Source: Ectocarpus siliculosus (lineage: Eukaryota > Sar > Phaeophyceae > Ectocarpales > Ectocarpaceae). From it: a DNA stretch of 64,000 nt. Position numbers and translations under genes: made by a program. The stretch is from the NCBI GenBank assembly GCA_000310025.1, contig FN648626.1:1-64000 (forward strand). Reading direction: 5' to 3'. Below, in pieces: positions 3,418 through 63,717 of this stretch (positions are counted from its first letter, which is position 1; each line of letters begins with the position of its first letter). Below the pieces are notes generated by a model that searched no databases, had not been told where the DNA came from, and saw only the letters and a program-made list of their open reading frames with translations.

Positions 3418-3750
3418 GCACGTACGTGCAGCAGCGCCTTTTGTTCCTATATTTTTTTGTGTATGCGCACCGGCGCTCTAGTCTAGTATGGGTGGCGCCG
3501 CCAGCGCAGTTGTGCGCTAGCGTTTTCCTGAAATCACAGGTGCTACGTCGACCGCCTAGAGCCCCAGCGGCACCAATGCCCCGGATGGATGAGTGCTCGG
3601 GAGTCAGAGCCACACACACCGAGTTACCCCCGATCGCAGTTTTTCCCCACCGGCAGCCGAAAAAGATAATGATGATGAGATTTGAGTGCCTAAGTCCGGG
3701 CTGGAGTCGCAGACGCCTTGCGGAAACCGGTGTGTGTTGGTCTCTCTCCC

Positions 3751-4125
3751 GCCGCTACCGCCTGGACTTTGGATGCCTGGGCCTGGCGCTAGCTGCCGGA
3801 TTTCTCTGGGCTCGGGAGCTCTTTCGCCGCTACCGCCTGGGCTTTGGATGCATGGGCCTGGCGCTAGCTGCCGGATTTCTCTGGGCTCGGGAGCTCTCTC
3901 GCCGCTACCGCCTGGACTTTGGATGCCTGGGCCTGGCGCTAGCTGCCGGATTTCTCTGGGCTCGGGAGCTCTTTCGCCGCTACCGCCTGGACTTTGGATG
4001 CCTGGGCCTGGCGCTAGCTGCCGGATTTCTCTGGGCTCGGGAGCTCTCTCGCCGCTACCGCCTGGGCTTTGGATGCATGGGCCTGGCGCTAGCTGCCGGA
4101 TTTCTCTGGGCTCGAGAGCTGAGGA
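3751..4125 (+). repeat. Five-copy 75-bp minisatellite in the retrotransposon leader
   Basis: Copies start at 3751, 3826, 3901, 3976 and 4051. Two variants alternate: copies 1, 3 and 4 carry CTGGACTTTGGATGCCTGGG, while copies 2 and 5 carry CTGGGCTTTGGATGCATGGG. Because 75 is a multiple of 3, several frames on both strands stay open through the array and encode 25-residue repeats. I treat these as a by-product, not genes. Confidence 0.9.
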
Positions 4126-27021: not shown

Positions 27022-27757
27022 CTATCCGTTCCCCCAGACGGTCCCCTCCCCCGGCTGTCTCGATACGATCCTACTGCCGTCTGTAAGTTTCCGTGACACT
27101 CGCCGCGAATCCTCTACATTGTTTCGCGCGTACGGCTTGTATGCATCCGACCTCCACTTCCCTTCTCTCTGAATCACTCGTTCTGCGATGTCTCCGCCCG
27201 ATGCAAGAGCCGTCGCGCCTCCAATTCGCAACGAGTGCAACGCGTACTCCTGGGGGTTACGCCCCGACTTCGCTACCACTTCTCTGACTACACGGAGGGC
27301 AGCAGTATACCTCACTACTCTCACTGCTCTTCCACTACGGTACGAAGCCAACGGTGCGGAGTCAGGCAACGTCGCATGACACGATAACAGCTCCACCACA
27401 AGAGCCACCGCGCCGCCGCGTGCTCTCACACCTGACTGCGGTCCGGCGACTTCGTCTCGCGTACGAACCCGTATGTTTCCTTTCTGCTCTTGATCGGCCT
27501 TGTGCCCTCTAAACCGCATTTCGACACGGTCTGCTCTACGATAGTGACTAAAGACTAATTGCGTCTCGCCAGCAAACAATGCTACGTCCGCCCTCGTAAG
27601 ACAGTGTGCCTCATGCACCCTGCCCGCATCATTCGCGAACACCTCATCAGACCGTGTGATAAAGAGATAGGACAAGCACAGACACAGCCACATCACTCTG
27701 CCCCCTTCCCCCCAGTTCTGGTTTGCGCTTTCCCCGTCCAGCAGCATACGCCAAGAC
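27022..27757 (-). CDS. Tyrosine recombinase catalytic domain of YR2 (N-terminus missing)
   Basis: The open frame runs from the insert edge near 27757 to a stop at 27022, about 245 codons, with no internal break. It carries the family signatures: an Arg region (YLFITRSDEVFAND), the His-x-x-Arg box (ALHSLRIGGATALASGG), and a C-terminal GKWRSDAYKPYA with the likely nucleophilic Tyr. Such enzymes integrate circular cDNA of DIRS/Ngaro-type elements by strand exchange. The N-terminal core-binding domain is gone: the frame enters from R1 sequence right before the catalytic part (the upstream residues of the open frame belong to R1). It is related to, but clearly distinct from, the recombinase of YR1. 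Without a start codon of its own, expression is doubtful. Confidence 0.8.
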
Positions 27758-29397
27758 TTTGGCCGACCCTGTCTCAAATGCCGATCTCGAGCTACAGTGA
27801 AAATCTCGTGGCGCCTCGAGTATGGTTCGGTGTGGAATCGCAAACCATGAGCCGTCCCCGAGTTTGAGCAGCTTCCGCCTCCTGTGGCCGGCAAGAGTCG
27901 ACCTTGACTGTTCCTTGCCCTGTTTCGCCATGGGAACGGCCGGTTGAAACAGCGAAAGAGGGTCCTGCGTGCTGCGCGCCACGATATTTATTTATTTATT
28001 TGTGCGTTTGTTCTTGAGCGATCATTGTACACAGCATGCGGCTGCTGCTGCGGTTGCTGCTGTTATGGTCGGAATGTGCTGCGATGGTCGTACGGTTATC
28101 GTAGTCAGGTTTGACAACAGTCTGCTCGTTCGTATAGCGGTAGCGGTGCGCATCTATCGCAAGGGCAAGCGCATTGAGATAATAGTTCGTCCGTCGTGCT
28201 TCTAGTCTACACAGACAGATTGTCGTGTTCTTCTTTGCTTCCACTTCATACCAGAAAAGAAAGAGAGTCTCCACCAACTTACAGTATCTCCACATCTCCA
28301 CAGCAGTTCGGAAACGACGACTAGACTATTTTTCTTTTGTCGTGTTTGTTGTTGCTGAGCGCACATCGGATGTCGCCGTTCGTTACACGTGCTCAAGCCT
28401 GCGGTGGGCCAGAGGGATGAGAGTGGATGTCTTCTCTAGAGTTCATACCTTGTCTTCTCGAGTCTCCCTTCCTTTAGTCTACCTCTCTCTCTCTCTGTTG
28501 CATTTTTGCCGTTAGGGTTCCAATAACATCGAACGTCAATGGCAATCGTTTTGCATCTTGCTGAGTAGGAGGCTACCCGTGTACCCGGTTGCTGCATGTG
28601 AGGCGATGGGCGCCGCCTCTTTCCGTCAAGCAATGCGCATGGCCCCTACGGTTCGCCGCACATGCAGTGCTGTGGGACAGCTTCCAGCGGTTCAGAGCGG
28701 CGACGATGTTTTTCGCCGGTAGGGCCCCAGAACAACGCGGACCGCGACTGTTTCATTGCTTTGGGGTCCCCCACTCACCCAACTCACCCATGGTTTGGTT
28801 TTTTTCCTCTTGTTTTTTGTGTTTCCCTGCCGACTAACAACCTCGGCTACTGCAGTGCAAATTTCATGGCGCCCTAAGTACGGTTCCGTAGGGAATTGCA
28901 AATCACGACCCCTCCCCAACTTGGAGTATAGCTTCAACCTCCAGCGGCGGATAAGACCGACATCAAACCCTACATTTTGTCTGTCTGTGTCGCCATGTGG
29001 CCATGCACGAACAGCAAGTAGTTGGAGAGTCACAATAAAGAAGGGTTCGCTTCGCCACCAAGAAAACATCTACAGCTGGATATGATGCTACCATGTATCG
29101 GGTACAGCTGTGGTTGAGCTTGAGGGATAGGGTCTACGGGAGCATAATATTCTGTGCGGGGAGTTAACGCCTTCCTCGCGTAACGATGCGCATCTCCCAC
29201 GGCAAGCAGAATGAAGTACGTCATCATGACGCTATTTCTTGTGACTAAGTTCAAGTTCGCCTGGGCGTTTTTGTTCTTACCGGAGAGAGACTAAACTTCT
29301 ACTACAATACGTACCACGTCCGTTTCCTTCGTGCCGGAGAGGAAACCTACTGTGAAAAGCGCATCTTCTGGGGTCCGCATTCATGTAGTCCCGGATT

Positions 29398-29597
29398 TAT
29401 GTTTGCTCGAGAATTCTGGATTATTTTTCTGCTGGCCACCAAAGAATTATCAAGATACATGAAACAAATTGAGAGCGCAGGTAAAATGCCGTCTTGCTCC
29501 CGACGTTTTCTTATCGGACTAACCCGTTCCAAACTTTCCAAGATTGCCCTTCTATCATTACTATTGTTTCGGCCTCTGGCCTAGACATATCTTACTC
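29398..29597 (-). repeat. YR1 split direct repeat B2 (3' terminus)
   Basis: 200 bp, about 90 percent like B1 at 29920-30119. Its outer edge joins R1 flank ending GGATT. Confidence 0.88.
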
Positions 29598-29692
29598 GTA
29601 AACAACCACCTACACTTGGTACCTCCTAGTCGTCGACCGACTAGACCCCCCCATGCTTCCCCCTCTCTTGAGCGATAGGTGTGGGTGGGTGG

Positions 29693-29919
29693 GAAATCGA
29701 TCAAGTCCTAGGCGGCACCCCGTGTTTGCTGCTCCTCAAAGCTGCTATATGTGCTACTCCTATCTTTCTCTCAAACGCACTTGCTTGTCTCTCGCCCAGC
29801 GAGAGCACAAAACTTTTCTGACACCGAGGCTGTCTCTATTTTTCGTCGATCCCCGCTTTTCCGAATTCCAACACGCCTCCACAAACCACAGATTCACATA
29901 CGTACTGAATCTTCAAGTT
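29693..29919 (-). repeat. YR1 split direct repeat A2 (internal)
   Basis: About 227 bp, matching A1 (36896-37119) with a few substitutions and small indels. It joins B1 at 29919/29920. Confidence 0.88.
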
Positions 29920-30119
29920 TATGTTTGCTCAAGGATTCTGGATTATTTTTCTGCAGGCAACCAAAGAAAAACCAAGACACATGAAACAAATTGAGAGCGC
30001 AGGTAAAATGCCGGCTTGCTCCCAACGTTTTCTTATCGGACTAACCCGTTGCAAACTTCCCAAGATTGCCCTCCTATCATTACTATTGTTTCGGCCTCTG
30101 GCCTAAACATATCTTACTC
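29920..30119 (-). repeat. YR1 split direct repeat B1 (internal)
   Basis: 200 bp, paired with B2. It starts 45 bp beyond the recombinase stop codon. Confidence 0.88.
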
Positions 30120-30164
30120 CATGAGGCATGTCCGATGACCTACTCCTCCGAAACCGCTCCCCGG

Positions 30165-31168
30165 TCACTCCTCGGGTTCCGTAAGGGCCTGAGACACGTA
30201 CTTCGCTCCTTCACCCCCAGCCCAAACGTACACCATAAAAGCCGATGATTTCCACCTCCCGGCTCTCTGAATTTGGATTACCGACGCCCCCATACTTGCT
30301 AGGTGCGTGGCCCCCCCGATCCTTCCTGAATGCAATGCATACTTCTGCGGGTCTCTACCCGCCACGCTCACGAGTAACCTGAGGTGTCTCGATGCCTCTG
30401 CCCTCGAAATAACCTTCCACCCGTCTTGTGTCCACGATTGCATCAATGGCGCATGACTCCCGAGCTCGGGGTGCAGATCTAACAGATCCAGTAACACCTT
30501 CAACGCCTCTCCTGATCTAGTGACGGTTGCTCCCAAACGTTTTTGATCTGCTTTTGACGCTCTGAACGTGACTTCCACTCGGCTAGCCTGCCTTCTGTCT
30601 GCCCATGCAACCCTTACCGGACCGCAAAAGAAACCCAGGTCTCCTCTAGTCAGGCAAAAATCTGAGTGCACGAGCCCCGAGTCGTCCGCCCAGATTTCTG
30701 AAGCTCGGCACATCAGCAGGTACGAGAGGGCAAGTCCATACCAGATCAACTTCCCTGATTCTCCCGAATGTTCGACCACGCTCTTTCCAGCTGCTAGCAT
30801 GTCCCACGAAAGTGGATTCCTAATCTTAGGCTTCGTCTGCGTATTGGCGTGGACCCTATCAATGGTCTTCAACATGGCAAGGATCTGGAAATGCGAAGTG
30901 GGCAACACTCCCATCCTGCGTGCATCTTATGGAAGTACTTGATGGCTGACAGATACCCGCGAATAGTCTGACTCTGGTTCTTGTGACCGAAACACCGGCA
31001 AGCCATGAACACAGACAAGTCACGCACCGCACTTTCCACCCCGTCGCTCTCGCTGAGCCACGGGCCCGAACCCGCCCCTGCTCGAGCCTCCTCCCACGTG
31101 TTCCACATCCGTTGATACACCTTATTGGTACCACTTCCCAACGACCCTAAGGTGAGTGCGTTGACCAA
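30165..31168 (-). pseudogene. Tyrosine recombinase of YR1, one frameshift
   Basis: The N-terminal part (31168 to about 30905) has the helical core-binding pattern (SGTNKVYQRMWNTWEEA, TIRGYLSAIKYFHKMH). The catalytic part continues in another frame to the stop at 30165. It shows LLMCRASEIWADD, YALHSGRIGGATHLASMG and AGRWKSSAFMVYV, supplying Arg, His-x-x-Arg and the Tyr region. A single small indel near 30905 separates the two. The open frame may extend upstream of 31168. The protein would integrate the circular DNA form. It lies between RNase H and the B1 repeat, the normal position in Ngaro/PAT elements. Confidence 0.85.
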
Positions 31169-31529
31169 CCGCTCCCCCTCGTCGCTCGTGCCTCCCCGGC
31201 CATCTTTTCCCTGTGTTCCTGATATTCGATCACCGGGTTTTCACAGCGTAAGGAAAGCGTACATTTCGAGGTTCTATTCTAAGGTTCGACAAATTCATGC
31301 CGAACCCGGGATAGCCCCAACTTGGCTTGAGGGGAGATCAGAAAACTTGGTCGTCCAAACCAACTCTACCTCCCCCGGCTATCGATTTTATCAAGGCGTC
31401 ATGAAACCGTGAGTGTGATGCGTGTCCACCGCTCCAGCTTACTCGATATCTCAATTCCTTTGATAATTCGTTGATCGACCAGAACGCGGAGCGGTGTCCT
31501 ACTGCCCTACCTTCGATCTCTTTGCCGTG

Positions 31530-33786
31530 TCAGACATTTTCTGTTCCTTGGACCATAATGTCCCATACCGAGTCGTCCAGACTATCTTTCGGTAATTTCT
31601 TTTGGAGAATAATGCTGAGCAACGCTGGTCCCCCTTCCCCGATATCCTGCTGTGTCCACCCTGAGTCTTTCGTGAGCATTCTTCCGTTGGCGGCGATCTC
31701 GTTTTCTTCCCAACGTGAGATCCCGTCCGCGAGTGTGTTCTTTCGACCAGGGATGTGCTTGGCCACGTGGCACCAGCCGCAAGAAATCTCCATCCTACCC
31801 ATGAGTCTCATTATGAGGCTAGCGCGCCTGTCACGCGACCCCCCACACCTGTTAGTCCAGCTGACGGCTGACACGTTGTCCCCGCGCATCAACACCGACT
31901 GCCCTTCTTCTACGGGTCTGTCTTTCAGGATCATTTGGACTACCCACGCCGTCATGAACATGCCCGTGAGGTCTAACAGATTGATCGTAATTTCTGACGT
32001 CTCCTTCACCTGCGCCTTGCGCTTGAGCTCCGCAGACAACGAGGGTTCGATCGTGTATCTCCAGAAAGTCTTTAGTTCGGGGCAGTAGCCGCCAATCGCT
32101 GTGAAGCTAGGGTCTGAGAGGTAGAGGCGTGATGGTGCTCGTTTTAACGTGGAGTAGGAACGATGCGCTGAGGGACTCCCCTCGATGGGCCAGGGGCTGG
32201 TTGAGGGCCCACTTCCAGAAGGCGATATCGCCGTGGAACTCTCTACCCAAGTCCACTAGACGTCGTGACCGTGTGTGTCGACTGGCTTGCGTATGCAGAC
32301 CCGATAGGCGGCACAGTTGCCACACAAAGTACCTACCAGCCCTGATGACATAGGTGAGGTTCCAAAGTTTTCCTGCGAGGCTGAGGACTTCTTGAACACT
32401 GGCCTTCTTCCTATCGTGGGGCCAATCTACCTCTAGGGTGTTCCGGATCGCGCTTACCCGTTCGGGAGTAGTTGCAATTCTGCCATCATGCGTGTATATG
32501 GTGTACCTCGGGGCCTCTATGACCGTGTCCCAGTCGGTGCTCTTTTTCGGGGCAAGAATGGGGGTTTCTCCAACTTCTCCCTTGCCAAACAGTCTGACAT
32601 GGTCCTAAGCTAGCGAGGCGGAAGCCATGAGTGCCGACTCGTCAGTAGGGTCATGCTGGACCTTCGTGAGAAAGAAATCGTCAACGTAGACCCTGGCCAA
32701 GAAATCGTCCGCGGGTCCCCCGCCTCTGTGCGGTTGTACGCCTGCCGACGATGGTATTGGGGTTGGGGTGCCTTTTTCCCAAGGGGGGGTTATTTTACCG
32801 TGAGACATCATTGCGATTCCTTCTGGTAGTAGTCGGGCGTTCGCGAGGGACGTGTTGCGGTGCGAGTGCTCTGCAGCGGAGGCTAACACACCCCACAATC
32901 CTGGTGAAGCTGCCCAGCCAAATGTCAGCCGTAGATCCGCTACTAGCACGTCTCCTATCACGTAGCAAAAGTTGTGAGCATGATCTGGTGAAATCCTAAC
33001 ATTTCTGAACGCTGAGGTGACATCAGCCTTGGCTGCAAGAATTCTCTTGTCAGGCCATCTTACTCGTAGGCTAGTGAGCTCCTCGAGGAAAGCTGGTAGT
33101 GCTTCGCCGCACAGGCAACGTGGTACTCCAGACATGATGGTATCTTTGTTGAGCCCACATTTTGACCCCTTGCTTGTGCTTGGATCAAAAGAGAAGTCGT
33201 TGATGATCCTCACTTTTTTTCCTGGGACCTCTCCCAACGGAGCTACTCTAGTCCCACGTACGTCCGATGCGTTCGCCTTTCAAAGGACGATACACCTATT
33301 ACGCTTGACATCGTCGCATAGTTTTCCCCACACTTGTGTGTGGTGATCGTCTACGCTACGGTGGTTGCCGTATGCCAAGGCTTTCTTGAGATTTTGCTGC
33401 GAGACTAGAGTGGGGGCAGGGGCTCCTTCACCGACTATCTCAATGAGGTCATCGATACCCGGGAAACCCTTCTCCTCTCCGAAATACTGCTTGACGTCGC
33501 TCACATCCAACGGCGGTGACACCAAAGTGCGGCCGATTCCCCTCGCGACGTCTGACAGCCTTCCATCGTGGAGCTTTACCAAATCACTACCAATATCCGC
33601 CATTTTCCGAATGATACATTGTTTCTCGTCTAGTGAGTGTAGGCTTGACGCGAGCATGCTTCTCTGTGCCTCGAGTCTATCGGTCAGAGTTTTTAAGTTT
33701 CTCGAAAAGTTGTCTTTTTTGGACTCTCTAGGGCCGAAGGTTCTTTCCCCGCCCCAAAGTGAGAAATCGCTGAATTCGACCCGCAA
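31530..33786 (-). pseudogene. Reverse transcriptase-RNase H of YR1, two stops and a frameshift
   Basis: One minus-strand frame starts at 33786 and covers an N-terminal helical region and then RT. RT shows VRIINDFSF, KADVTSAFRNV (motif A Asp) and ARVYVDDFFL (YVDD box). In-frame stops occur at 33280 (TGA) and 32605 (TAG). The frame continues to about 32150, where a shift leads into RNase H: SDPSFTAIGGYC (first catalytic Asp), RGDNVSAVSWTN and HIPGRKNTLADGISRW, ending at 31530. Order and motifs are those of DIRS-type elements. RT would make cDNA and RNase H would remove the RNA. Stops and shift mean the copy is dead unless suppressed. Confidence 0.88.
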
Positions 33787-33820
33787 CCCTGTCGCATTAC
33801 TTTTGTGATGTCAGCGGCCC

Positions 33821-34768
33821 TAGCAGTGTCCGCCGCTAGTTCCCTACGTGCCAACGATGCATCCCCCGGGGTGTCCGCCCCCGGGGTAGCTTTTGAGACG
33901 GTCATGGTGTCCGCCAATTCCGTGCCGTTCCCGCGAATGGTGTCCGCCAATCGGGGCTGTGTGACTTACAAATTCTTACGCAGTATTTTCTGTTTACCGA
34001 CAACGTTCGCGGCGTCCACCGCTTGCGTGCCGCGGGGCCAATAATGGTCGCCCGGGGTGTCCTCCCCCGAGGCGACTGCATTGCATTGTTCAGCACGTGT
34101 GGTGTCCGCCACAGTCTTTGTGGTGTACAAGGAAGAGCAGTTATTGATCCCGCTATTGGTGTCCGCCAATAGTTTTTCCGTTAGTGTGTTTTCCGCGGGA
34201 ACGGCGTCCACCGTTTGCGGGAGTGAGGGTAATGCATGTTCACATTGCACACTACTGGTGTCCGCCAGTATTTTTTGGTTACCGACAACGCTCGCGGCGT
34301 CCACCGCTTGCGTGCCGCGGGGCCAATTATATTCGCCCGGGGTGTCCTCCCCCGAGGGGACTGCATTGCATTGTTCAGCACGTGTGGCGTCCACCACAGT
34401 CTTCGTGGAGTACAAGGCAGAGCAGTAATTGATCCCGCTATTGGTGTCCGCCAATAGGTTTTCCGTTAGTGTGTTCTTCGCGGGAACGGCGTCCACCGTT
34501 TGCGGGAGTGATAGGTTTTCCGATAGTGCGTTTATCGCGGGAACGGCGTCCACCGTATGCGGGAGTGAGGGTAATGCATGTTCACACCGGGTGTCCGCCC
34601 AGTGTGTGTCAATATTCGCATGATTGGTGTCCGCCAATAGTTGTGACTTATCTATCACCAGTGCGGTGTCCTCCGCTTGTGTGTTACATGACCCGTACTT
34701 AGCGCCGGGGGTGTCCGCCCCCGTAGCTACTGTTTTTCACGTTTTGGCGTGAGTGGTGTCCGCCACTA
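33821..34768 (-). repeat. Array of about 21 small hairpins with a near-constant loop
   Basis: Read on the plus strand, each unit is a variable stem around the core GG-(T/C)GTCC(G/A/T)-CC. Loops start at 33827, 33872, 33908, 33941, 34013, 34058, 34103, 34160, 34205, 34259, 34298, 34343, 34388, 34445, 34490, 34547, 34592, 34628, 34667, 34712 and 34757. Stems vary but stay self-complementary: CTATTGG/CCAATAG, TACTGG/CCAGTA, TGTGG/CCACA, AACGG/CCGTT, CGGGGG/CCCCCG. A 285-bp higher-order unit repeats from 33996 to 34281. On the minus strand nearly every core encodes Ala-Asp-Thr or Val-Asp-Ala in one frame, open from about 34979 to 33693 apart from stops at 34737 and 33966. It lies between the Gag-like and RT ORFs of YR1. 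Confidence 0.85.
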
Positions 34769-34888
34769 TGCAGGGTGAAAACGAATCCAAACAGTTGACA
34801 GTATGGGAAATTACAGGTTCGCAACTCATGCTCTCACCGTAAAACACAGCGGGTGCCACCGACCCGGGAAGGGGAACTCCCACACTCG

Positions 34889-35991
34889 CTACTGTCCTTC
34901 TGCTGTCCGCAAAGGCATTCGCTCCCGTGCCAAGCTCGCCACCCCCCATTGTCGGCCCCACCTCGTGGAAGTGGGGCACGCACCGTCACGGATTGGTACC
35001 GCCACGGCCTCCTCCCGCGCGCCCTCCACCTCCTCCTCCTCCAGCTGCTCCTCTTCCCCGGCCGCCTCCATGACTGTACCTCGCGACTGGTGCTTGTGTC
35101 GCTCTCGGAGCAGGGGGGGCACGAGCGGGCGGAGCGGGCGGAGGGGGGGGGGGGGGGAGGAACAGCAGGCAAGAGTGACGGGTGCCGCTGGGTGTGCCCC
35201 TTCTCGCACCGCGGGCGTGTGCAGGACATGCCCGACCACGTGTAGAAGCACTCGTTGTCGGGAGTGTTCCAGGCGGCAACGGTCTGTGCAAACGCGTTGG
35301 CGGCTGCCGTGGAAGAGTATGGGACTGGTGCGGCGGGGGTGCGGGCAGCTTGACCCTTTGAAGTAGCTTTGCGCTTGGTGCCAGCGGCGGCCGTTTTTGG
35401 CTGTTGCTGACGGGCTAGACCCCCCTGCAGGAGACCCACCATCGAAGAAGCCGTACCCTCCGCAATCAGGATCAACGTCCGTGAGAACTGCGGGACTTGG
35501 ATCGCCCCCACCGTATTGGGGGGTGGAGGGGAGAGGATGTTGCGCTGCCGGAGCGCCCTCGCTTCGGTGGTCACACGACTGACGAAATCTGCCCAATCGA
35601 GGTTGGCGTCTAGCTTGAACCTGGCGAAGACGTCGGCCTCGCGGCCCCTGAACTCAGCGCAGTGGCGGGAAGTGTAGCGGCGGAGGTCCTCGGAGATCCT
35701 GAAAAGTTCCCGGAAAAACAGGCCAACCCGGTCGGCCCCGGCCGGCGAGGCGCCCGCCATGCCGTCCTTGGTGAAGACTTCCAGGACGCGAACGAAGGTG
35801 TCGAGATGCACGTCGAACGTGCGTGTCACCGCCGCTACCCCCGGGGGGCGCGGCGGCGAGGACGCCGCAACGTCGATGGCGCCGAAGGTAAGCAGCGCGT
35901 GCAGGCCTGGTTGCGGGTGGCCCGCGTCACGAATGATGTGGTCGAATTCGCCCCCCGTCATGACGACAGGCGAGAAGGTAGCCCCTCGCAT
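34889..35991 (-). pseudogene. Gag-like ORF of YR1 with CCCH finger, frameshifted at a G run
   Basis: ATG at 35991 on the minus strand. The first part is folded-looking (FDVHLDTFVRVLEVFTKDG, GLFFRELFRISEDLRRY). A basic linker (GTKRKATSKGQ) follows, and then C-x8-C-x4-C-x3-H (ECFYTWSGMSCTRPRCEKGH). This spacing equals that of the Ty3-like Gag at 4419. A 15-base G run at 35143-35157 comes next. The frame that continues sensibly beyond it (acidic EEEQLEEEEVEG, stop at 34889) differs from the frame before it, so the run has probably slipped. I call it Gag-like from position and the RNA-binding finger; no capsid domain is recognisable. Confidence 0.65.
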
Positions 35992-36254
35992 TAGCTACAG
36001 GGCCGCTTGGCCGTCTTTTTCCCACGTGCGGCCCTCCAGCTTTTGGGCTTCTTTCAGCCGATGGGCATTGTAAACAGGCGCGGCCCCCGGGGATGCTCGC
36101 GAGCTGTTGGTATCCCTGGGGCGCGGCCGACGAGGACTGGAGGTAGTGCTGGTGGGGGTAGGCCTGGAGTTGTTGGTGTTGATACTGTTGTTGCAACGGT
36201 TGCGGCTGCGACTGCTGCCGGTGCTGCTGCTGCTGCTGCTGCTGGTGAGGTTGA

Positions 36255-36286
<32 letters not shown>

Positions 36287-36892
36287 AGGTTGTTGCTGCT
36301 GCTGCTGTTGCGGCGGCGGCGCTTGGACCAGGGGGAGGACTACTGACTGACTATTGTTGTAGGCGAGGCCATCCCGGGCATTGTTGTGGGCAGCGGCGCC
36401 CTGGGCGGGCTGCCGGTTGCCGGTCAAATTTATGACCACCTCCTGGAGAGACCGAATCTGTTGTTGCTGGCGACTGCCCTGGGTCACGAGCTGTTGTGGC
36501 AGCGAGAAGAGGTTCGGAATACTCCCACTGCCCTCCTGCTGCTTTTGCTGGGGCTGTTGCTGCTGCTGTTGCATCAGCTGAGGTTGGGGGCTCCGTGAAT
36601 CATGGGTGGCGGCGGCGGAATTGCTGCCGCCGGACCGCCGTCGTTTTGTTGCTGCGGGTGACCAATCTGGAGATCCTGCTGCTGCTGCTGCTGCGGCACC
36701 TGACCTGCTGCTGCTGCTGCTGCTGTTCCTCCTGCTGCCTGTTGTTGTTGCTGCTGCTGCTGCCTGTTTTGGGCGTCCCCGCCACCGGCGGCCGAGCATG
36801 GGGGACTGCCGTCCGCCGGATTGCCTTGACTGGCCGCCGCGACGCCCGCGGCGCGGGTTCGCCCTCGCCGGTTGCCCATCATTGCCGTCCAT
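35927..36892 (-). CDS. Q-rich ORF1 of YR1
   Basis: ATG at 36892, four bases inside the A1 repeat boundary, so A1 serves as its leader. 321 codons to the stop at 35927. The start is Arg/Gly-rich (NPRRGRRGGQSRQSGG). The middle is Ser, Ala and Gln tracts encoded by CAG/CTG microsatellites, with a predicted helix (QQIRSLQEVVINLTG) near residue 150. It overlaps the start of the Gag-like ORF by 65 bases in another frame. It may be the N-terminal half of Gag separated by a frameshift, or a separate ORF. No domain is recognised. Confidence 0.55.
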
Positions 36893-36895
36893 CCC

Positions 36896-37119
36896 GAAAT
36901 CGATCAAATCCTATGCGGCACCCCGTGTTTGCTGCTCCTCAAAGCTGCTATATCTGCTACTCCTCTCCTCTCAAACGCACTTGCTTGTCTCTCGCCCAGC
37001 TAGATCACAAAAACTTTCTGACACCGAGGCTGTCTCTATTTTTCTTCGATCCCCGCTTTTCCGAATTCCAAAACGCCTCCACAAACCACAGATTCACATA
37101 CGTACTGAATCTTCACGTT
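36896..37119 (-). repeat. YR1 split direct repeat A1 (5' terminus)
   Basis: About 224 bp, paired with A2. Its outer edge joins R1 flank starting CTTTTCCAGCG, which matches R1b from 40316. Confidence 0.88.
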
Positions 37120-39260
37120 CTTTTCCAGCGTGCGGAGAGCGCGTTCTGGTGTGACGTGCGTACTACATGTGTGTATGTAAACGACAGAAAAACATCAACG
37201 AGATGATTGGCGGCATTCATTCTTGAAAGCATGGAGTCCCTCGGCACCAAAACGTGCATGCGAATGGATGGGCGTAGTAAGGGCCGATCTTAACGAAGAA
37301 ATCAGATCTCGAAATCACATTCAGATTTGGTTGTAAGACCGGAAGATCCACTGAACTCTTTCGTTGATTGCCTGAAATGTTATGGAACCCGTCGAATCTT
37401 AAGGACTTAAAACAGGACGACCCAAAACCAAATCGGGATTCCAAAGGTAAAATTCTGAAGCTTTAGCTTCAGTCTCATCTTTCAATATCCGTGGAACTTT
37501 TATTCGCATAGCCCACCCCTTGCCCGACCCTGTCTCAAATGCCGATCTCGAGCTACGGTGTAAAGCTCGTGGCGTTCGAGTATGGTTCGGTGTGGAATCG
37601 CAAACCATGAGCCGTCGCCGAGTTTGAGCAGCTTCCGCCTCCTGTGGCCGGCAAGAGTCGACCTTAACTGTTCCTTGCCCTGTTTCGCCATGGGAACGGC
37701 CGGTTGAACAGCGAAAGAGGGTCCTGCGTGCTGCGCGCCACATTTTATTTTTAATTTTTTTGCGTTTGTTCTTGAGTAACCATTGTACACATGCGGCTGC
37801 TGCTGCGGTTGCTGCTGTTATGGTCGGAATGTGCTGCAATGGTCGCGCGGTTATCGTAGTCAGGTTTGACAACAGTCTGCTCGTTCGTATAGCGGCAGCG
37901 GTGCGCATCTATCGCGAGGGCAAGCGCATTGAGATAATAGTTCGTCCGTCGTGCTTCTAGTCTACACAGATAGTCGTGTTCTTCTTTTGCGGTTACTTCA
38001 TACCAGACGAAAAAAAAAAAGTCTCCACCAACTTACAGGAAGTATCTCCACAGCAGTTCGGAAACGACGACTAGACTATTTTTCTTTTGTCGTGTTTGTT
38101 GTTGCTGAGCGCACATCGGATGTCGCCGTTCGTTACACGTGCTCAAGCCTGCGGTGGGCCAGAGGGATGAGAGTGGGTGTCTTCTCTAGAGTCCATGCCT
38201 TGTCTTCTCGAGTCTCCCTTCCTTTAGTCTACCTCTCTCTCTCTCTGTTGCATTTTTGCCGTTAGGGTTCCAATAACATCGAACGTCAATGGCAATCGTT
38301 TTGCATCTTGCTGAGTAGGAGGCTACCCGTGTACCCGGTTGCTGCATGTGAGGCGATGGGCGCCGCCTCTTTCCGTCAAGCAATGCGCATGGCCCCTACG
38401 GTTCGCCGCACATGCAGTGCTGTGGGACAGCTTCCAGCGGTTCAGAGCGGCGACGATGATTTTCGCCGGTAGGGCCCCAGAACAACGCGGACCGCGACTG
38501 TTTCATTGTTTGGGGGTCCCCCACTCACCCAACCCACCCATGAATTTGTTTTTTGTGTTTCCCTGCCGACTAACAACCTCGGCTACTGCAGTGCAAATTT
38601 CATGGCGCCCTAAGTACGGTTCCGTAGGGAATTGCAAATCACGACCCCTCCCCCAACTTTGAGTATAGCTTCAACCTCCAGCGGCGGATAAGACCGACAT
38701 CAAACCCTACATTTTGTCTGTCTGTGTCGCCATGTGGCCATGCACGAACAGCAAGTAGTTGGAGAGTCACAATAAAGAAGGGTTCGCTTCGCCACCAAGA
38801 AGACAGTTTTTTTTTCGATTCTTCTACAGCTGGATATGATGCTACCATGTATCGGGTATAGCTGTGGTTGAGCTTGAGGGATGAGGGTCTACGGCAGCAT
38901 AATATTCTGTGCGAGGAGTTAACGCCTTCCTCGCGTAGCGATGCGCATCTCCCACGGCAAGCAGAATGAAGTACGTCATCATGACGCTGTTTCTTGTGAC
39001 TACAAGTTCAAGTTCGCCTGGGCGTTATTGTTCTTACCGGAGAGAGAGACTAAACTTCTACTACAATACGTACCAGTACGTGTACCCGGGTACTGCATGC
39101 TGTGAGGTAGTGGGTGCTGCCCCTCCTGTTTGCTGCGGTACATGGAAAGCTTCCGGTGGGTCAGAGTGGCAAGTGGGCCTTGTTTCTTCTCTTGTTTCTT
39201 AGCTCTGCTCTCCTCTACTTCTTTGTTTCCTGTCGCTGTTTGTCTCTCTTATTTTATCGC

Positions 39261-39614
39261 CCTGTCGGTTTGATTCGTGGTCTCCAATATTTTCAGCGTA
39301 CGTAGTTAGGTGTCTACTACAGGACATGCGCTACTACTGCTGCGTCCCGTCCATGGGTGGGTGCAACAGAAGAGACCCACCTGTCGGTTTGATTCGTGGT
39401 CTCCAATATTTTCAGCGTACGTAGTTAGGTGTCTACTACAGGACATGCGCTACTACTGCTGCGTCCCGTCCATGGGTGGGTGCAACAGAAGAGACCCACC
39501 TGTCGGTTTGATTCGTGGTCTCCAATATTTTCAGCGTACGTAGTTAGTTGTCTACTACAGGACATGCGCTACTACTGCTGCGTCCGTCCATGGGTGGGTG
39601 CAACAGAAGAGCCC
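39261..39614 (+). repeat. Three-copy 119-bp tandem repeat
   Basis: Copies start at 39261, 39380 and 39499 (each CCTGTCGGTTTGATTCG) and are nearly identical. Absent from R1a. Confidence 0.92.
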
Positions 39615-40001
39615 CGGGGACTGGTGGCCTTCTGACCTGATCGCAGAGAGAGGTTCCTGCCACTACCACAATGGGACTCTTATTAAATGTCCATGACGGG
39701 GAACACGTACTAAGTCTCTTGTTTTTTTATTTCTCTTAATATGACACAACGAATCCATCTCTATCATAGAAAAGAGTCAGAGACAGATAAGCAATGGATT
39801 CGTAGCGTCGGAAAAAGCCACCTGTATGTCTTTGATTTCCCAGACAGCATATAGGGACATCTCCCCTGCGGGTAACAGGCTCAACAAAAACAGTTTGGTA
39901 GCTGTCTTTTTCTTTTCCCCTCTCTCCCGTCCGTTTCTTTCGTTTCGGAGAGGAAACCTACTGTGAAAAGCGCATCTTCTGGGGTCCGCATTCATATAGT
40001 C

Positions 40002-56572: not shown

Positions 56573-58512
56573 GGAGCGGCGGAATAGGAGGAGATTTCGC
56601 CCGGAGAGGAGACTACAGCTGTGCGCATCAAGATGGAGGAGTGGTCGCGCAGCGCAGCAGAGAAGCTACGAGCTGCCGAGTCCGAGGTGGAGAGGCTGGT
56701 GAAGGCACTTAGAGTTACGGAGGCTGCCGAGTATGAGAGGGAGAGACTTAGGCAGCAGCAACACCAACAACAACAACAACAACAACAGCAGCAGCAGCGA
56801 TGGAGTGCTCAATCGCAGCAGCAGTCATCGCAGTTACAGCAGCGTTCTCGTGGTTTTGTCCGTCAACAGAACCAAGACTGCGTTTTCGCTCAGAGTCACC
56901 AGGCCCGGCAGCACCAGCAATCGGCGCGGCAGCAGCAGCAGTCGCCGCCAACCAGCCTTAGTGGGATGTATGACTGCGGGAGCAACGCTGTGTATTTCCA
57001 GCAGGAATCACCCCCTCCGTCCGGTACGGTATACCATTGCACTGGGTACGGCAGGAACAGCCACCACGGCGGAGAATGTGCCGGTCCCCGCAGGTTCGAG
57101 AGTACCTGCGGCGCCTGTGGTCAGGACGGCCATATGTGGCGGAACTGCGCCGTGCATCTTCATGGCCGCAGCGGCGAGGATGACTGCCGTATCGTCCGCG
57201 GTGGCTGCTGGATGGACGTCAATGGTGGCGGCAGCTGCATCGACATGGGTGGTGGCGTCGGTGGAAGCCCGGTTGTGCAGCAGCAGGTGGTGGTAGACAA
57301 CAACCACCGCTCTGATTTTGTTGACCTGGTTCACGTTGGCCGCGAGGTGGTGGCAGAGAGCGAGGACCGCTCTGATTTTGTCGACCTGGTTCACGCTGGC
57401 GGCGCTGTGGACGGTGATGATGACGGATGGTGTGGATGGAATGGTTCTGTCGACATGGTTCACGCTGGTGGCAGTGTCTGAGTTGATGTTCTCACCGCTT
57501 CTGCGGCGAGGACAATGGCCGGAGCGCCCGCGGTGGCGGCAGGAGTGGCGGCATCGGAAGCAGCTCGAGCGGCGACGGCGGTGAAATCCGGTGGCAGTGT
57601 TTCCCCCGCTGCGGCGGCCGGGGGGTGGCCGGAGTCCCCGCCGTGGCGGGAGGAGCGGCAGCATCGGCGGCAGTTCCAGCGGCGACGGCGGCGAACTCTT
57701 GCGACAGTGTTCCCTCCGCGACGGCGGCGTGGGAAATCGCCGGGGTCCCTGCAGTGGCGACAGGAGCAACGGCATCGGCAGCAGCTCCAGAGGCGACGGC
57801 GGTGACCTCCGGCGGCGGTAGTGTTTCCCTCGTAGCGACGGCGGGGGAAGCGCCCGATGGGCTCGCGGCGGCAGCTGGAGCAGCGGCATCGGCGGCGGTT
57901 CCAGCGCCGACGGCGACAGTGCCCGGCGACACTGATATTTCCGTAACGGTGGCGGGGAGAACGACCGGAGCACCCGCGTTGGTGGTTGGAGCGTCGGCAT
58001 GGACGGCGGTTCCAGCGGAGACGGCGGCGGCACCCGACGGTGTTGTTTTCCCCGCTGCGGCGGCGGCGGCGAAAATGCCTCGAGATCCCGCGCAGGTGGC
58101 TACAGCGGCGGCATCGGCGGTTGGAGTGGTGACATCTGTGACGGCGCCACCCGCGACGGGGGTGCGCGGGGCCAACGGTCCCGGGGCGGACGACCCGGTC
58201 GATTGCTCCGGCAGTTGCAGCGGCAGCAGCAGCAGCAGCAGCAGCGGCGGCAGCAGTAGCAAAGACGAGGTAGGGGAGACCGATGTGGCCTGGTTTCGGG
58301 CACTGCTACGCCGCTTCGACCTGGGGAAGCTCTGCCGGTTGAAGGCTGGGAGAGTGGGGCCGGTGCTGGGTGTGGGCATCCCGGTCGACCGTGGAAAGAT
58401 GTCGTGGGGGCAACGGCCGGGGCGCGCGTATTCGCGACCGGAGCAGGGGCAGGAGGGCCGTGAAGCGGAGAACGGATTAGAACATGATATATCTCTGAGG
58501 AGTTTGTTTTGA
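56573..58512 (+). pseudogene. Decayed gag of the plus Gag-only element
   Basis: Homologous to the intact minus-strand ORF at 61633-63717. The expected start codon is ATA, an early one-base insertion shifts the frame, and the first knuckle has lost a Cys (CTGYGRN where the other copy has CTRCGRN). A TGA at 57479 interrupts the frame, and later parts lie in other frames. The second knuckle (CGACGQDGHMWRNC) and the tandem Ala-rich repeats are still visible. Confidence 0.82.
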
Positions 58513-58744: not shown

Positions 58745-58930
58745 TGTTTGGGGTGCTCGGCAGAGTATACTATCTACGAGGCCTCCGGGAGATACGCGGA
58801 TGGTATGTATTGACGGACATGCTGCATGGCGATGGTGTGGCCTACCGCATGTCTTTACCTCCCTAAGCATCAAGGATTTGAGTCAACCTTCTTCCTCTTT
58901 CGGCCTCTGACGAACTACCGCACCCAATCA
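58745..58930 (+). repeat. 3' LTR of the plus Gag-only element
   Basis: 186 bp; TGTTTGGGG start, CCCAATCA end, followed by the TTTAC duplication. A GAGCAGGGCGGC tract precedes it as a possible polypurine primer. Confidence 0.88.
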
Positions 58931-59044
58931 TTTACTCCCCAAACCCCCTTCACCTTTCTCAACAAGACTCAACCACCGTTTCTTCGAACGGTTTCGCGTC
59001 CAGCGCCTTCTTCGCGTTCCTCCTACTCCTCTTTCGTCATCCTC

Positions 59045-59377
59045 TTACTCCTTTCCCTCCCTGTCCGCCGCCTTCTCGTCCTCGAAGTCCTCCTCCGACT
59101 CGGAGCTCTTGTCCTCAACCGAGCCCCCCTTCTCCGCTGACGACTCGTCTGAGAGTGACTCGTCTTGAGAGTGACTCGTAGGTTTCTGGTGTGGGAAATT
59201 TCGTCGTGTGACGGGATCGTTGATAGGGATCCCCTCCGAAAGGAGACTGTGCTCATCATAACCACTCTCCCGCAAGCTCTTTCTCTCTCTCTCTCTCTCC
59301 TCTGCTACGGACGGCACCGCAGCTGCGGTGCACGCAAGCTCGCCAGGGGCTACGTGGGTTTTTCTACCCCCGTGCAT
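59045..59377 (-). CDS. Small acidic ORF, uncertain
   Basis: ATG at 59377, 110 codons, Ser/Glu/Asp-rich C-terminus (DESLSDESSAEKGGS). It lies between the two Gag-only elements. No domain; it may be a chance frame or an exon of an interrupted gene. Confidence 0.2.
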   Translation of the reverse strand: MHGGRKTHVAPGELACTAAAVPSVAEERERERKSLRESGYDEHSLLSEGIPINDPVTRRNFPHQKPTSHSQDESLSDESSAEKGGSVEDKSSESEEDFEDEKAADREGKE

Positions 59378-59575
59378 GAACTCCGCGCCTTGTAAATATA
59401 ATTTGGAATGGCCTTGTTCATATAGGAAATTGCTTGGTGTTAGGGGGGGGGGCGTCCCCCCCCCCAGCCCCGGAGAGGTCCAAATTTAATATTTGGCGGG
59501 TAGGTTTCGGAATCGTTTTTTGTTGCGGCTCCTTGAGGCCCTCCACATTTTTCTGCTTGCTGGCTCCTGTAACAG

Positions 59576-59763
59576 TGTTTGGGTGCGGTAGCCCGTCAGA
59601 GGCCGAAAGAGAAAGAAGGTTGACTCAAGACCTTTGGTTGATTAGAGAGTGAGAGACATGCGGTAGGCAACACCATCGCCATGCAGCATGTCCATCAACA
59701 CATTTCATCCGCGTACCCCCCGGAGGCCCCGTAGACAGTATACTCTGCCGAGCACCCCAAACA
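59576..59763 (-). repeat. 3' LTR of the minus Gag-only element
   Basis: 188 bp, TGTTTGGGG ... CCCAAACA on the minus strand, preceded by CCGGGGGGC as a likely polypurine tract. Confidence 0.85.
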
Positions 59764-61632: not shown

Positions 61633-63717
61633 TCAGCCGGCAAAGCTCCCCCAGGTCGAAGGGGCGCAGCAGTGCCCCAAACCAGGCCACATCCATCCCC
61701 TCTGCCTCGTCGTTGCTACTGCTGCCGCTGCAGCTGCTGCTGCTGCCGCTGCAGCTGCTGCTGCTGCTGCTGCTGCTGGAACCATGGACCAGGTCGTCCA
61801 CCCCGGGATAGTTGGCGCCGCGCACCCCCGAACACACGGTGCCGGGATCGAAAGGGTGCGTGGACGCCCCCCTCTCGCCACAGACGCTGTCACATAGCAG
61901 CCATCAACCTCACCTGCGCACCAACCGCCATCATCGCTGCCGTCGTCGATGCCGTTGACCACCGCTTCTCCGTTGCTGGCCGCCCCCCCAACCGATATGG
62001 TGGGGGAAACGTTACCGACGGTCGCCATCGTAGCGGCCGGTGCCGTCGCCGCGGGCGCGGGTCGTGCCGTCACCGATGTCGCCACTCCAGCCGCCGATGC
62101 CGCCACTGTAGACACCTGCGCGGGCTCTCGAGCCATTCTCCCCGCCGCCGCAGCGGGAGAAACAACACCGTCGGGTGCCGCCGCCGTCGCCGCTGGAACC
62201 GCCGTCGATACCGACGCTCCAACCACCATCGCGGGCGCTCCGGTTGTTCTACCCGCCACCGTCGCGGAGATAACAGTGTCGCCGGGCACCGCCGCCGTCG
62301 CCGCTGGAACCGCCGCCGATGCCGCTACTCCAGCTGTCGCCGCGAGCCCTCCGGGCGCTTCCTCCGCCGTCGCTGCGAAGGAAACACTACCACCGACGTA
62401 GGTCGCCACCGTCGCCTCTGGAGCTGCTGCCGATGCCGCCGCTCCTGCCGCCACTGCAGGGACCCCGGCAATTCCCCCCGCCGCCGTCGCGGCGACAACA
62501 CTACCGCCGCCGTAGGTCGCCGCCGTAGCCGTTGGAGCTGCCGCCGATGCCGCCGCTCCTGCCGCCACCGCGGGGACTCCGGCCACCCCCCCTGCCGCCG
62601 CCGCGGGGAAAACACTGCCGCCAGAGGTCACCGCCGTCGCCGCCGGAGCTGCTGCCGATGCCGCCGCTCCTGCCGCCACCGCGGGGACCCCGGCCGTTCC
62701 CCCCGCCGCCACCGCGGGGAAACCACTGCCGCCGGAGATCGCCGCCGTCGCCGCTCGAGCTGCTGCCGATGCCGCCACTCCAGTCGCCAACGCAGGCGCT
62801 CCGGCCATTTCCCCCGCCCCAGCAGCGGGGAAAACATCATCGCAGACACTTCCACCAGCGTGAACCATGTCCACAGAATCATTCCATCCAAACCATCCGT
62901 CATCATCACCGTCCACAGCGCCGCCAGCGTGAACCAGGTCGACAAAATCAGAGCGGTCCTCGCTCTCTGCCACCACCTCGCGGCCAACGTGAACCAGGTC
63001 AACAAAATCAGAGCGGTACTCGCTCTCTACCACCAACTGCTGCTGTACGACCGAGCTTCCACCGATGTCCATGCAGCTTCCGCCGCCATTGACGCCCATC
63101 CAGCAGCCACGGCGGACGATACGGCCGTCATCCTCGCCGCTGCTGCCATGAAGATGCACGGCGCAGTTCCGCCACATATGGCCGTCCTGACCACAGGCGC
63201 CGCACGTACCCTCGAACCTGCGGGGTGCGGTGCATTCTTCGCCGTGGTGGCCGTTCCTGCCGCACCGAGTGCAATGGTATACCCTACCAGGCGGAGGGGG
63301 TGATTCCTGCTGGAAATACACGGCGTTTCTCCCGCAGTCATATATCCCACCAACTCCGGTTGGCGGCAGCTGCTGTTGCTGCCGCGCCTGGTGGCTCTGA
63401 GTGAAAACGCAGTGTTGGTTCTGCTGAGGGACAAAACCACCACGAGAACACTGCTGTACCTGCGATGGCTGCTGCTGCCATTGAGCACTCCATCGCTGCT
63501 GCTGTTGTTGTTGTTGTTGTTGCTGCCGCCTAAGTCTCTCCTTCTCATACCCGGCAGCCTCCGCAGCTCTGAGCACCTTTACCAGTCTCTCGACCTCCGA
63601 CTCGGCAGCTCGTAGCTTCTCTGCTGCGTTGCGCGACCTCTCCTCCATCTTGATGCGCACAACTGTAGTCTCATCCCTTTGCGAATCTCTTCCTATTCCG
63701 CCGCTTCTCTCCGCCAT
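61633..63717 (-). CDS. gag: Gag of the minus Gag-only element, two CCHC knuckles
   Basis: ATG at 63717, 694 codons without a break. It starts with a charged helix likely to form a coiled coil (AAEKLRAAESEVERLVKVLR), then a Gln tract. Two zinc knuckles with C-x2-C-x4-H-x4-C spacing (CTRCGRNGHHGEEC and CGACGQDGHMWRNC) are the signature of nucleocapsid RNA binding. Three acidic repeats built on RSDFVDLVH/DSVDMVH follow. The last half is about six imperfect Ala-rich repeats of 37-39 residues (VAAGAAASAAAPAAT core) and a poly-Ala tract. No protease, RT or integrase follows. It probably packages element RNA while relying on enzymes of a partner element (inference). Confidence 0.8.
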   Translation of the reverse strand: MAERSGGIGRDSQRDETTVVRIKMEERSRNAAEKLRAAESEVERLVKVLRAAEAAGYEKERLRRQQQQQQQQQQRWSAQWQQQPSQVQQCSRGGFVPQQNQHCVFTQSHQARQQQQLPPTGVGGIYDCGRNAVYFQQESPPPPGRVYHCTRCGRNGHHGEECTAPRRFEGTCGACGQDGHMWRNCAVHLHGSSGEDDGRIVRRGCWMGVNGGGSCMDIGGSSVVQQQLVVESEYRSDFVDLVHVGREVVAESEDRSDFVDLVHAGGAVDGDDDGWFGWNDSVDMVHAGGSVCDDVFPAAGAGEMAGAPALATGVAASAAARAATAAISGGSGFPAVAAGGTAGVPAVAAGAAASAAAPAATAVTSGGSVFPAAAAGGVAGVPAVAAGAAASAAAPTATAATYGGGSVVAATAAGGIAGVPAVAAGAAASAAAPEATVATYVGGSVSFAATAEEAPGGLAATAGVAASAAVPAATAAVPGDTVISATVAGRTTGAPAMVVGASVSTAVPAATAAAPDGVVSPAAAAGRMAREPAQVSTVAASAAGVATSVTARPAPAATAPAATMATVGNVSPTISVGGAASNGEAVVNGIDDGSDDGGWCAGEVDGCYVTASVARGGRPRTLSIPAPCVRGCAAPTIPGWTTWSMVPAAAAAAAAAAAAAAAAAAAVATTRQRGWMWPGLGHCCAPSTWGSFAG

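Follow-up and report, generated by a model that had tools for sequence, protein, structure and literature searches.

The stretch of DNA analysed here (the window) comprises 64,000 nucleotides of Ectocarpus siliculosus contig FN648626.1. Its minus strand carries a Ngaro-like tyrosine recombinase (YR) retroelement at positions 29396–37119, which repeat analysis resolves into the order A1-[gag-array-RT-YR]-B1A2B2. The split direct repeat A1 (36896–37119; repeats D10 and D16) forms the 5′ end of the element, and B1 (29918–30119; D6), A2 (29693–29919; D10 and D16) and B2 (29396–29597; D6) occur in the order expected for the Ngaro type. Ngaro elements are described as having A1-[ORFs]-B1A2B2 repeats, a Gag-like ORF, RT/RNase H and a YR (PMC8547959), and 15 Ngaro families have been reported in Ectocarpus (PMC12477816). 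The gag region (34834–36910) occupies two frames in the window copy (ORFs 35927–36910 and 34834–35994). It is followed by an in-frame array of 21 hairpin units that makes up the 5′ portion of the pol frame (33821–34768), a pol segment (33280–33810), the putative reverse transcriptase core (32605–33279), the rest of the RT with an RNase-H-like region (31530–32604, again in two frames) and, as the last ORFs, the tyrosine recombinase (30165–31240). The split repeats, together with a Cre-like relative of the recombinase, bear out the YR-retroelement context given in an earlier note on this DNA, and the layout confirms the position that it had assigned to the array, between Gag and RT. The window copy is decayed, with stops in the frame of the array and an RT frame that is out of register. 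Copy L040 has a single open frame that runs from the start of the locus, within the array, through the RT to a stop at codon 1082. DNA further upstream revealed that the array/pol frame overlaps the end of gag.

The recombinase was identified through a relative, P0020, which is 72% identical to the window YR ORF. Its structure model (pLDDT 80) matches Cre with an E value of 4.8e-7 and a TM score of 0.64, and integron integrases appear lower in the list (ranks 38, 39 and 41, E 0.015–0.04). Pfam alone gave an E value of 0.15 for the YR. The closest named match comes from Ectocarpus sp. CCAP 1310/34 (93% identity over 65%). The RT core contains FGW..SPG and YVDD motifs, which we take to mark this segment as an RT. 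No RT family of Pfam or NCBIfam matched the window segments; nor was an RT family match obtained for 12 aligned relatives or among PDB sequences, and the RT structure model (pLDDT 38) was too poor for a structure search. RVT_1 was found below threshold in all three distant relatives scanned (E 0.003–0.012). The RT assignment is thus putative and combines homology within the group, the motifs and these three sub-threshold matches. The RNase-H-like segment of the window had no Pfam or NCBIfam match and is presumed from its position and from motifs. The Gag of family A, the family of the window copy, had no Pfam match either. In copy C11 of this family it carries a C-x8-C-x4-C-x3-H motif, which is present at the Gag C-terminus in each of families A, B and C described below (one copy each).

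Several other features surround the element. Long direct repeats at 28035–29247 and 37790–39002, about 9.75 kb apart, flank it, and an ORF at 27022–27987, which has no Pfam match, is putatively recombinase-like by its motif; the Ngaro-like element seems to sit inside another element or between two copies of one. Elsewhere in the window, inverted ends of about 130 bp (58793–58920 and 59586–59715) point to a non-autonomous DNA transposon of small size, about 0.9 kb, within which lie a perfect 18-bp palindrome (59314–59331) and a G10/C10 run (59443–59465). Other tandem repeats are located at 3744–4120 (75-bp units), 39261–39615 (119 bp), 57515–57915 (110 bp) and 62090–62836 (111/225 bp), and three of these four overlap long ORFs.

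The units of the array share the minus-strand core GG[C/T/A]GGAC[A/G]C[C/T]. The corresponding plus-strand pattern GGYGTCCNCC has 21 matches in the 64-kb window, for an expectation of 1.36 ± 1.08; 20 of them fall within 33870–34764 and one in the poly-G/C run at 59451. Together with a variant core at 33825–33834, this amounts to 21 units, the number of hairpins with a common core that had originally been estimated. In order along the minus strand, and with perfect stems counted including the constant GG/CC, the cores are unit 1 at 34755–34764 (5 bp), unit 2 at 34710–34719 (6 bp), unit 3 at 34665–34674 (4 bp, with A..A flanking GGAC), unit 4 at 34626–34635 (5 bp), unit 5 at 34590–34599 (3 bp, continuing past a G-U pair), unit 6 at 34545–34554 (T..G, 4 bp), unit 7 at 34488–34497 (T..G, 5 bp), unit 8 at 34443–34452 (7 bp), unit 9 at 34386–34395 (T..G, 5 bp), unit 10 at 34341–34350 (A..A, 4 bp) and unit 11 at 34296–34305 (T..G, 4 bp and outer pairs). 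They continue with unit 12 at 34257–34266 (6 bp), unit 13 at 34203–34212 (T..G, 5 bp), unit 14 at 34158–34167 (7 bp), unit 15 at 34101–34110 (5 bp), unit 16 at 34056–34065 (A..A, 4 bp), unit 17 at 34011–34020 (T..G, 4 bp), unit 18 at 33939–33948 (3 bp), unit 19 at 33906–33915 (3 bp), unit 20 at 33870–33879 (4 bp) and unit 21, the variant ending in CT, at 33825–33834 (1 bp perfect). Seventeen of the 21 units therefore have stems of 4 bp or more, close to the 16 or so noted before, and ten have 5 bp or more. The homologue of unit 5 in copy L073 has 9 perfect bp if the count begins at one of the core's G-C pairs, and the counterpart of unit 21 in the same copy has 7 bp with G-U counted. The GGAC loop is common to all 21 units, while the stems differ from one to the next. 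Spacings range from 33 to 72 nt (11–24 codons) and all 20 are multiples of 3; in L040 all 22 cores lie in a single codon phase, consistent with the one minus-strand frame claimed for the array.

The stem arms within each unit are complementary far beyond chance. Exchanging right arms between units was used as a control on the 17 window units that are distinct in their 5-mer arms. The summed stem beyond GG/CC was 45, compared to 10.2 ± 4.3 after swapping, and none of 20000 swaps reached the observed value. For 54 units pooled from several copies, the sum was 114 compared to 29.3 ± 7.0 (0/20000). Shuffling synonymous codons of L040 gave 41.5 ± 6.9 pairs against 97 observed, with a maximum of 66 in 2000 shuffles. 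Covariation across the 21 units of the window, which form 19 distinct rows, was scored with 500 shuffles: the score was 0.411 compared to 0.142 ± 0.030 (0/500), and 73.7% of cells were paired compared to 58.3% (0/500), falling to 36–45% when the partner was slid by 1–3 bases. Immediately outside GG/CC, nine rows have U-A, six have C-G and four have G-C, and no row is unpaired there. Six pairs change on both sides, a number equalled by 178 of the 500 shuffles and thus not unusual; at the level of cells, however, double-sided changes number 31 compared to 11.5 in shuffles (0/500).

Folding of whole regions gave the same picture. Against 20 dinucleotide shuffles, the family A array has a z score of −6.5 on the minus strand and −5.0 on the plus strand; the corresponding values are −6.8 for the sense strand of family B, −3.5 (sense) and −7.5 (antisense) for family C, and −0.7 for an RT control. 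Against 100 synonymous shuffles each, they are −5.0 (sense) and −4.5 (antisense) for family A, and −7.0 and −1.4 for family B, with RT segments as a control at −0.9 and +0.7 (sense). For 498-nt pieces of family C, the scores are −1.8 and −3.5 (sense) and −5.1 and −5.4 (antisense). In local 60-nt windows, sense and antisense scores are −4.6 and −2.9 for L040, −6.1 and −1.3 for family B, and −1.3 and −2.5 for family C. Elsewhere they are 0.2 for the family A stretch after the array, −1.7 for gag, −1.0 for YR and −1.5 for the distant locus L077; the stretch preceding the family B array (+2.6) is less structured than its shuffles. In a scan of the whole window for stems of at least 6 bp, the array was not the most hairpin-rich part; the top region was 59001–59750, where the count is inflated by the G10/C10 run. 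The earlier note had held that a protein repeat alone would not make the arms complementary and that the DNA or RNA fold appeared constrained. The shuffled and codon-matched controls (0/20000 arm swaps, 0/2000 synonymous shuffles, fold z of −5.0 against synonymous shuffles) support this, as do relatives within the genome, and the hairpin as such is very probably under constraint.

Across this genome, two cores 23–50 nt apart occur 205 times, whereas the reversed pattern does not occur. A DNA search located the array in 16 places (22 matches), four of them divergent or partial (C55, C25, C14 and C16). It accompanies 11 of the 12 fetched RT loci of at least 83% identity, the exception being L045, and the number of units varies between copies. 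Thirteen family A copies were aligned, and nine were used for codon-position counts, after C2, C30, C55 and C25 were dropped, with the hairpin defined as the core and 4 bases on each side. Outside hairpins, each codon position is represented by 187 sites, of which 32 (first), 28 (second) and 29 (third) are variable; inside, the corresponding counts are 11/127, 6/128 and 3/128. Third positions are thus far less variable in hairpins than outside (3/128 compared to 29/187, p = 9e-5), and so are four-fold sites (3/82 compared to 15/95, p = 0.011). Third positions of the core are nearly fixed (2/85 variable). With the array halved, the core-versus-outside difference at third positions is weaker but keeps its direction (p = 0.06 and 0.013). 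Over six copies, RT diversity by codon position is 0.015, 0.020 and 0.054, an ordinary coding pattern, and linker diversity in the same six copies is 0.040, 0.030 and 0.047. At bases 5–10 from the core it is 0.052, 0.027 and 0.050 in the nine copies, lower at position 2. Because of the linker values and the lower position 2 near the core, some weak peptide constraint may act on the array. Nevertheless, since third positions in hairpins are near-fixed and codon-level constraint outside them is slight, it looks as if the hairpins, and hence the nucleic acid rather than the peptide, are conserved. An antisense-encoded protein was also considered and was rejected on the scant codon periodicity outside hairpins.

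The bases flanking GGAC also covary. Among 75 distinct units, which are related by descent and in which the second base is limited to A or G, the combinations are C..A (52), T..G (12), A..A (9) and T..A (2), with a Fisher p value of 3e-12. Without limiting the second base, 226 instances comprise 140 C..A, 52 T..G, 31 A..A, 2 T..A and 1 A..C. C-A and U-G are near-isosteric wobble pairs, and this covariation hints at RNA geometry. At alignment column 880, one orthologous pair is G-C, G-U or A-U depending on the copy; some units pair poorly wherever they occur (e.g. column 972). Inside stems, 15 G-U and 13 A-C appositions indicate no strand preference. The lack of a G-U bias and the stronger antisense fold of family C both weigh against a firm choice of strand for the functional form.

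Related families carry hairpins of other designs at the same place. Sister family B (58–68% RT identity; loci L048, L049, L052, L053, L055–L059 and L061, and L060 beside L053) has an array composed mostly of 120-nt repeats of four hairpins each, plus singletons. Its hairpins keep largely constant flanks, AGACC and GGAGA, and differ in their interiors. For six recurrent hairpin types, 25 of 30 arm positions match compared to 15.8 when permuted (exact permutation 4/720, G-U counted). The linkers are rich in A, and folding is much stronger on the sense strand than on the antisense strand. Two of ten loci (L048 and L049) have an uninterrupted RT frame in the 1500 nt that precede the RT; the other eight have 4–40 stops there. 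Among the family B units (14 distinct of 27), no excess stem conservation was found over 14 variable positions placed by eye. In family C (54–56% RT identity; L062–L068), the corresponding region shows no codon periodicity (0.061, 0.072, 0.059) and contains imperfect palindromes of about 90 nt, in which single mismatches about every fourth base separate short paired blocks. They lie at about 145–235 and 829–919 on the sense strand of L062, and L063–L068 are alike. Sister family B, with its own hairpin array, and the aligned family A copies, with their low third-position variation in hairpins, are the relatives within the genome referred to above.

Twelve further RT loci are more distant (35–41% identity, L080 at 67%); upstream of L074 and L080 the sequence is wholly or mostly masked. 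In the ten others, the RT frame when translated shows no tandem array, and hairpin counts lie within about 2 sd of shuffles, the highest being L077 (14 compared to 8.2 ± 2.9). There are at least 17 protein relatives; among the 11 examined, several carry repeats at the N-terminus that differ markedly in sequence, and P0001 and P0002 retain the [AVE]-D-[TA] motif. In these two, codons flanking the core are complementary in 9 of 16 cases compared to 4.3 expected (40/5000, G-U allowed), or 6 of 16 compared to 3.3 without G-U (355/5000), and P0001 alone is not significant. A palindrome test based on peptides only failed to detect the known positives, families A and B, across the relatives, so that a nominal match for P0004 (0/40) was discounted. 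No external DNA of the relatives was found in viral_contigs or genome_contigs. The core pattern matched at least 120 stretches of viral_contigs; because 77 of the 80 stretches listed had a single match and three had two, these were taken as chance. Rfam gave two weak matches (E up to 1) within 30000–37500, both below the gathering score and neither in the array.

We tentatively propose that the array acts in cis as a structured region of nucleic acid, and that this is most probably the RNA form, in the genomic transcript. The machinery of the element itself would recognise the hairpins as structures that share a loop. A constant loop with variable stems is what a loop-reading protein would leave. 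The leading candidate for this reader is Gag, through the C-terminal CCCH zinc-finger motif. CCCH fingers commonly bind RNA, and multi-site binding by Gag is favoured because of this motif in the Gag of families A, B and C and because of the constant-loop design. Many weak, similar sites would concentrate Gag on full-length RNA for packaging or assembly. A point against the link is the Gag of a distant family without the array, in which zf-CCCH scores above the Pfam cut-off (L076, residues 234–258, frame from base 2). The peptide encoded by the array would be a tolerated linker, translated in passing, and the only reason for its frame to stay open would be the position of the array ahead of the RT in the same ORF. 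As a somewhat bolder and rather less probable version, each family may have its own hairpin recognition code, consisting of the loop in A, the flanks in B and the mismatched palindromes in C, read by its own Gag or another element protein. The element would then package or handle only its own RNA, with the encoded peptide as evolutionary ballast.

RNA packaging was one of the roles first suggested for the array, and it is possible by analogy. MS2 and other RNA viruses have multiple dispersed packaging signals that contact the particle protein (PMC4751978, PMC6281560). The likeness lies in the many RNA sites of a common kind, here hairpins with a shared GGAC loop in coding RNA (21/21). Unlike those signals, the sites are clustered in an array of a retroelement, Gag binding is putative, and family B keeps the flanks rather than the loop; dispersal over the whole genome of the element is not observed either, as the core pattern in the window is confined to the array except for the one poly-G/C site. 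The spread of a mini-hairpin, another of the early suggestions, is disfavoured, since the loop is constant while the stems differ and a spreading hairpin would bring its own constant stem.

An unlikely alternative is that the hairpins slow or redirect ribosomes after the gag-pol junction and so control frameshifting, readthrough or reinitiation, or meter a delay. The array does begin just downstream of the end of gag, and pol is in a different frame from gag in family A (copy C11) and in family B, while in family C it is in the same frame after one stop (copies L206, L208 and L209); in the distant L076, gag and pol also share one frame separated by a stop. However, this frame relation differs between families and even between two A copies. 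Moreover, known frameshift stimulators are single structures that lie within a few bases of the shift site, as opposed to some 20 structures over 1 kb, the first of them tens of bases downstream.

It is equally improbable that the palindromes are a mutational by-product, generated when template switching by RT at quasi-palindromes perfects imperfect repeats in a region where the peptide drifts freely. Such a process gives no reason to expect that some 20 units whose stems diverge should keep a constant loop, that third positions in the core should be nearly fixed or that C..A and T..G should covary. It would account for the slight codon constraint on bases outside hairpins and for the unrelated forms that palindromy takes in the three families. 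No excess of hairpins is found just after the array, another point against it, although that stretch is probably under protein constraint.

Less probable still is a role of the hairpin, as DNA or cDNA, as a folded single-strand site for the Cre-like recombinase of the element, loosely comparable to the folded attC sites recognised by integron integrases, with units being lost or gained. In this context, the presence of the recombinase, the integron integrases among its structural matches, the variable number of units and the fact that the families agree better in palindromy than in strand preference would all fit. Yet the boundaries of duplications and deletions, as judged by eye, fall within arms or linkers rather than in the core and resemble ordinary slippage, and contact of the recombinase with the array is purely conjectural. 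Finally, an ordinary tandem [AVE]-D-[TA] protein repeat whose palindromes are an accident of codon usage is strongly disfavoured and has very little chance of being correct: the single codon phase of the L040 cores and the recurrence of the motif in P0001 and P0002 agree with it, but the arm-swap and codon-shuffle results, the slight peptide constraint outside hairpins and the nearly fixed third positions of the core do not.

Literature searches found no such hairpin array described for a retroelement; the nearest class is that of PARCELs (PMC2996958). The main texts of the two Ngaro papers (PMC8547959, PMC12477816) contain neither "hairpin" nor "palindrom". PARCELs are likewise tandem in-frame coding repeats with DNA dyad symmetry, located in some taxa within ORFs linked to mobile elements, and their authors regard the significance of the palindromy as unclear (PMC2996958). 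Their defining feature is DUF285, an amphipathic repeat of 25 aa that is conserved (PMC2996958). The array shares the dyad symmetry in tandem coding repeats; however, DUF285 was absent from a Pfam scan of the array ORF, and the 33–72 nt spacing does not correspond to the PARCEL repeat. Here the peptide looks little constrained, the units lie 11–24 codons apart, the loop is constant and the stems covary. Palindromic elements in coding genes of Rickettsia and Wolbachia, which are named in the same source (PMC2996958), resemble the array in that palindromic DNA lies in frame within protein genes. The array differs from them in being tandem, with differing stems, within one retroelement gene, and it does not consist of one conserved palindrome at many sites. 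The Rickettsia and Wolbachia elements are dispersed single insertions of related sequence.

We know of next to nothing on RNA packaging and selection by YR retroelements. A dense array of short hairpins whose position is defined, and of which two or more families have natural variants, provides a directly testable substrate for this question. An ORF of more than 300 codons also appears to be conserved for the shape of its nucleic acid and not for its protein, which is a warning for the annotation of repeat proteins.
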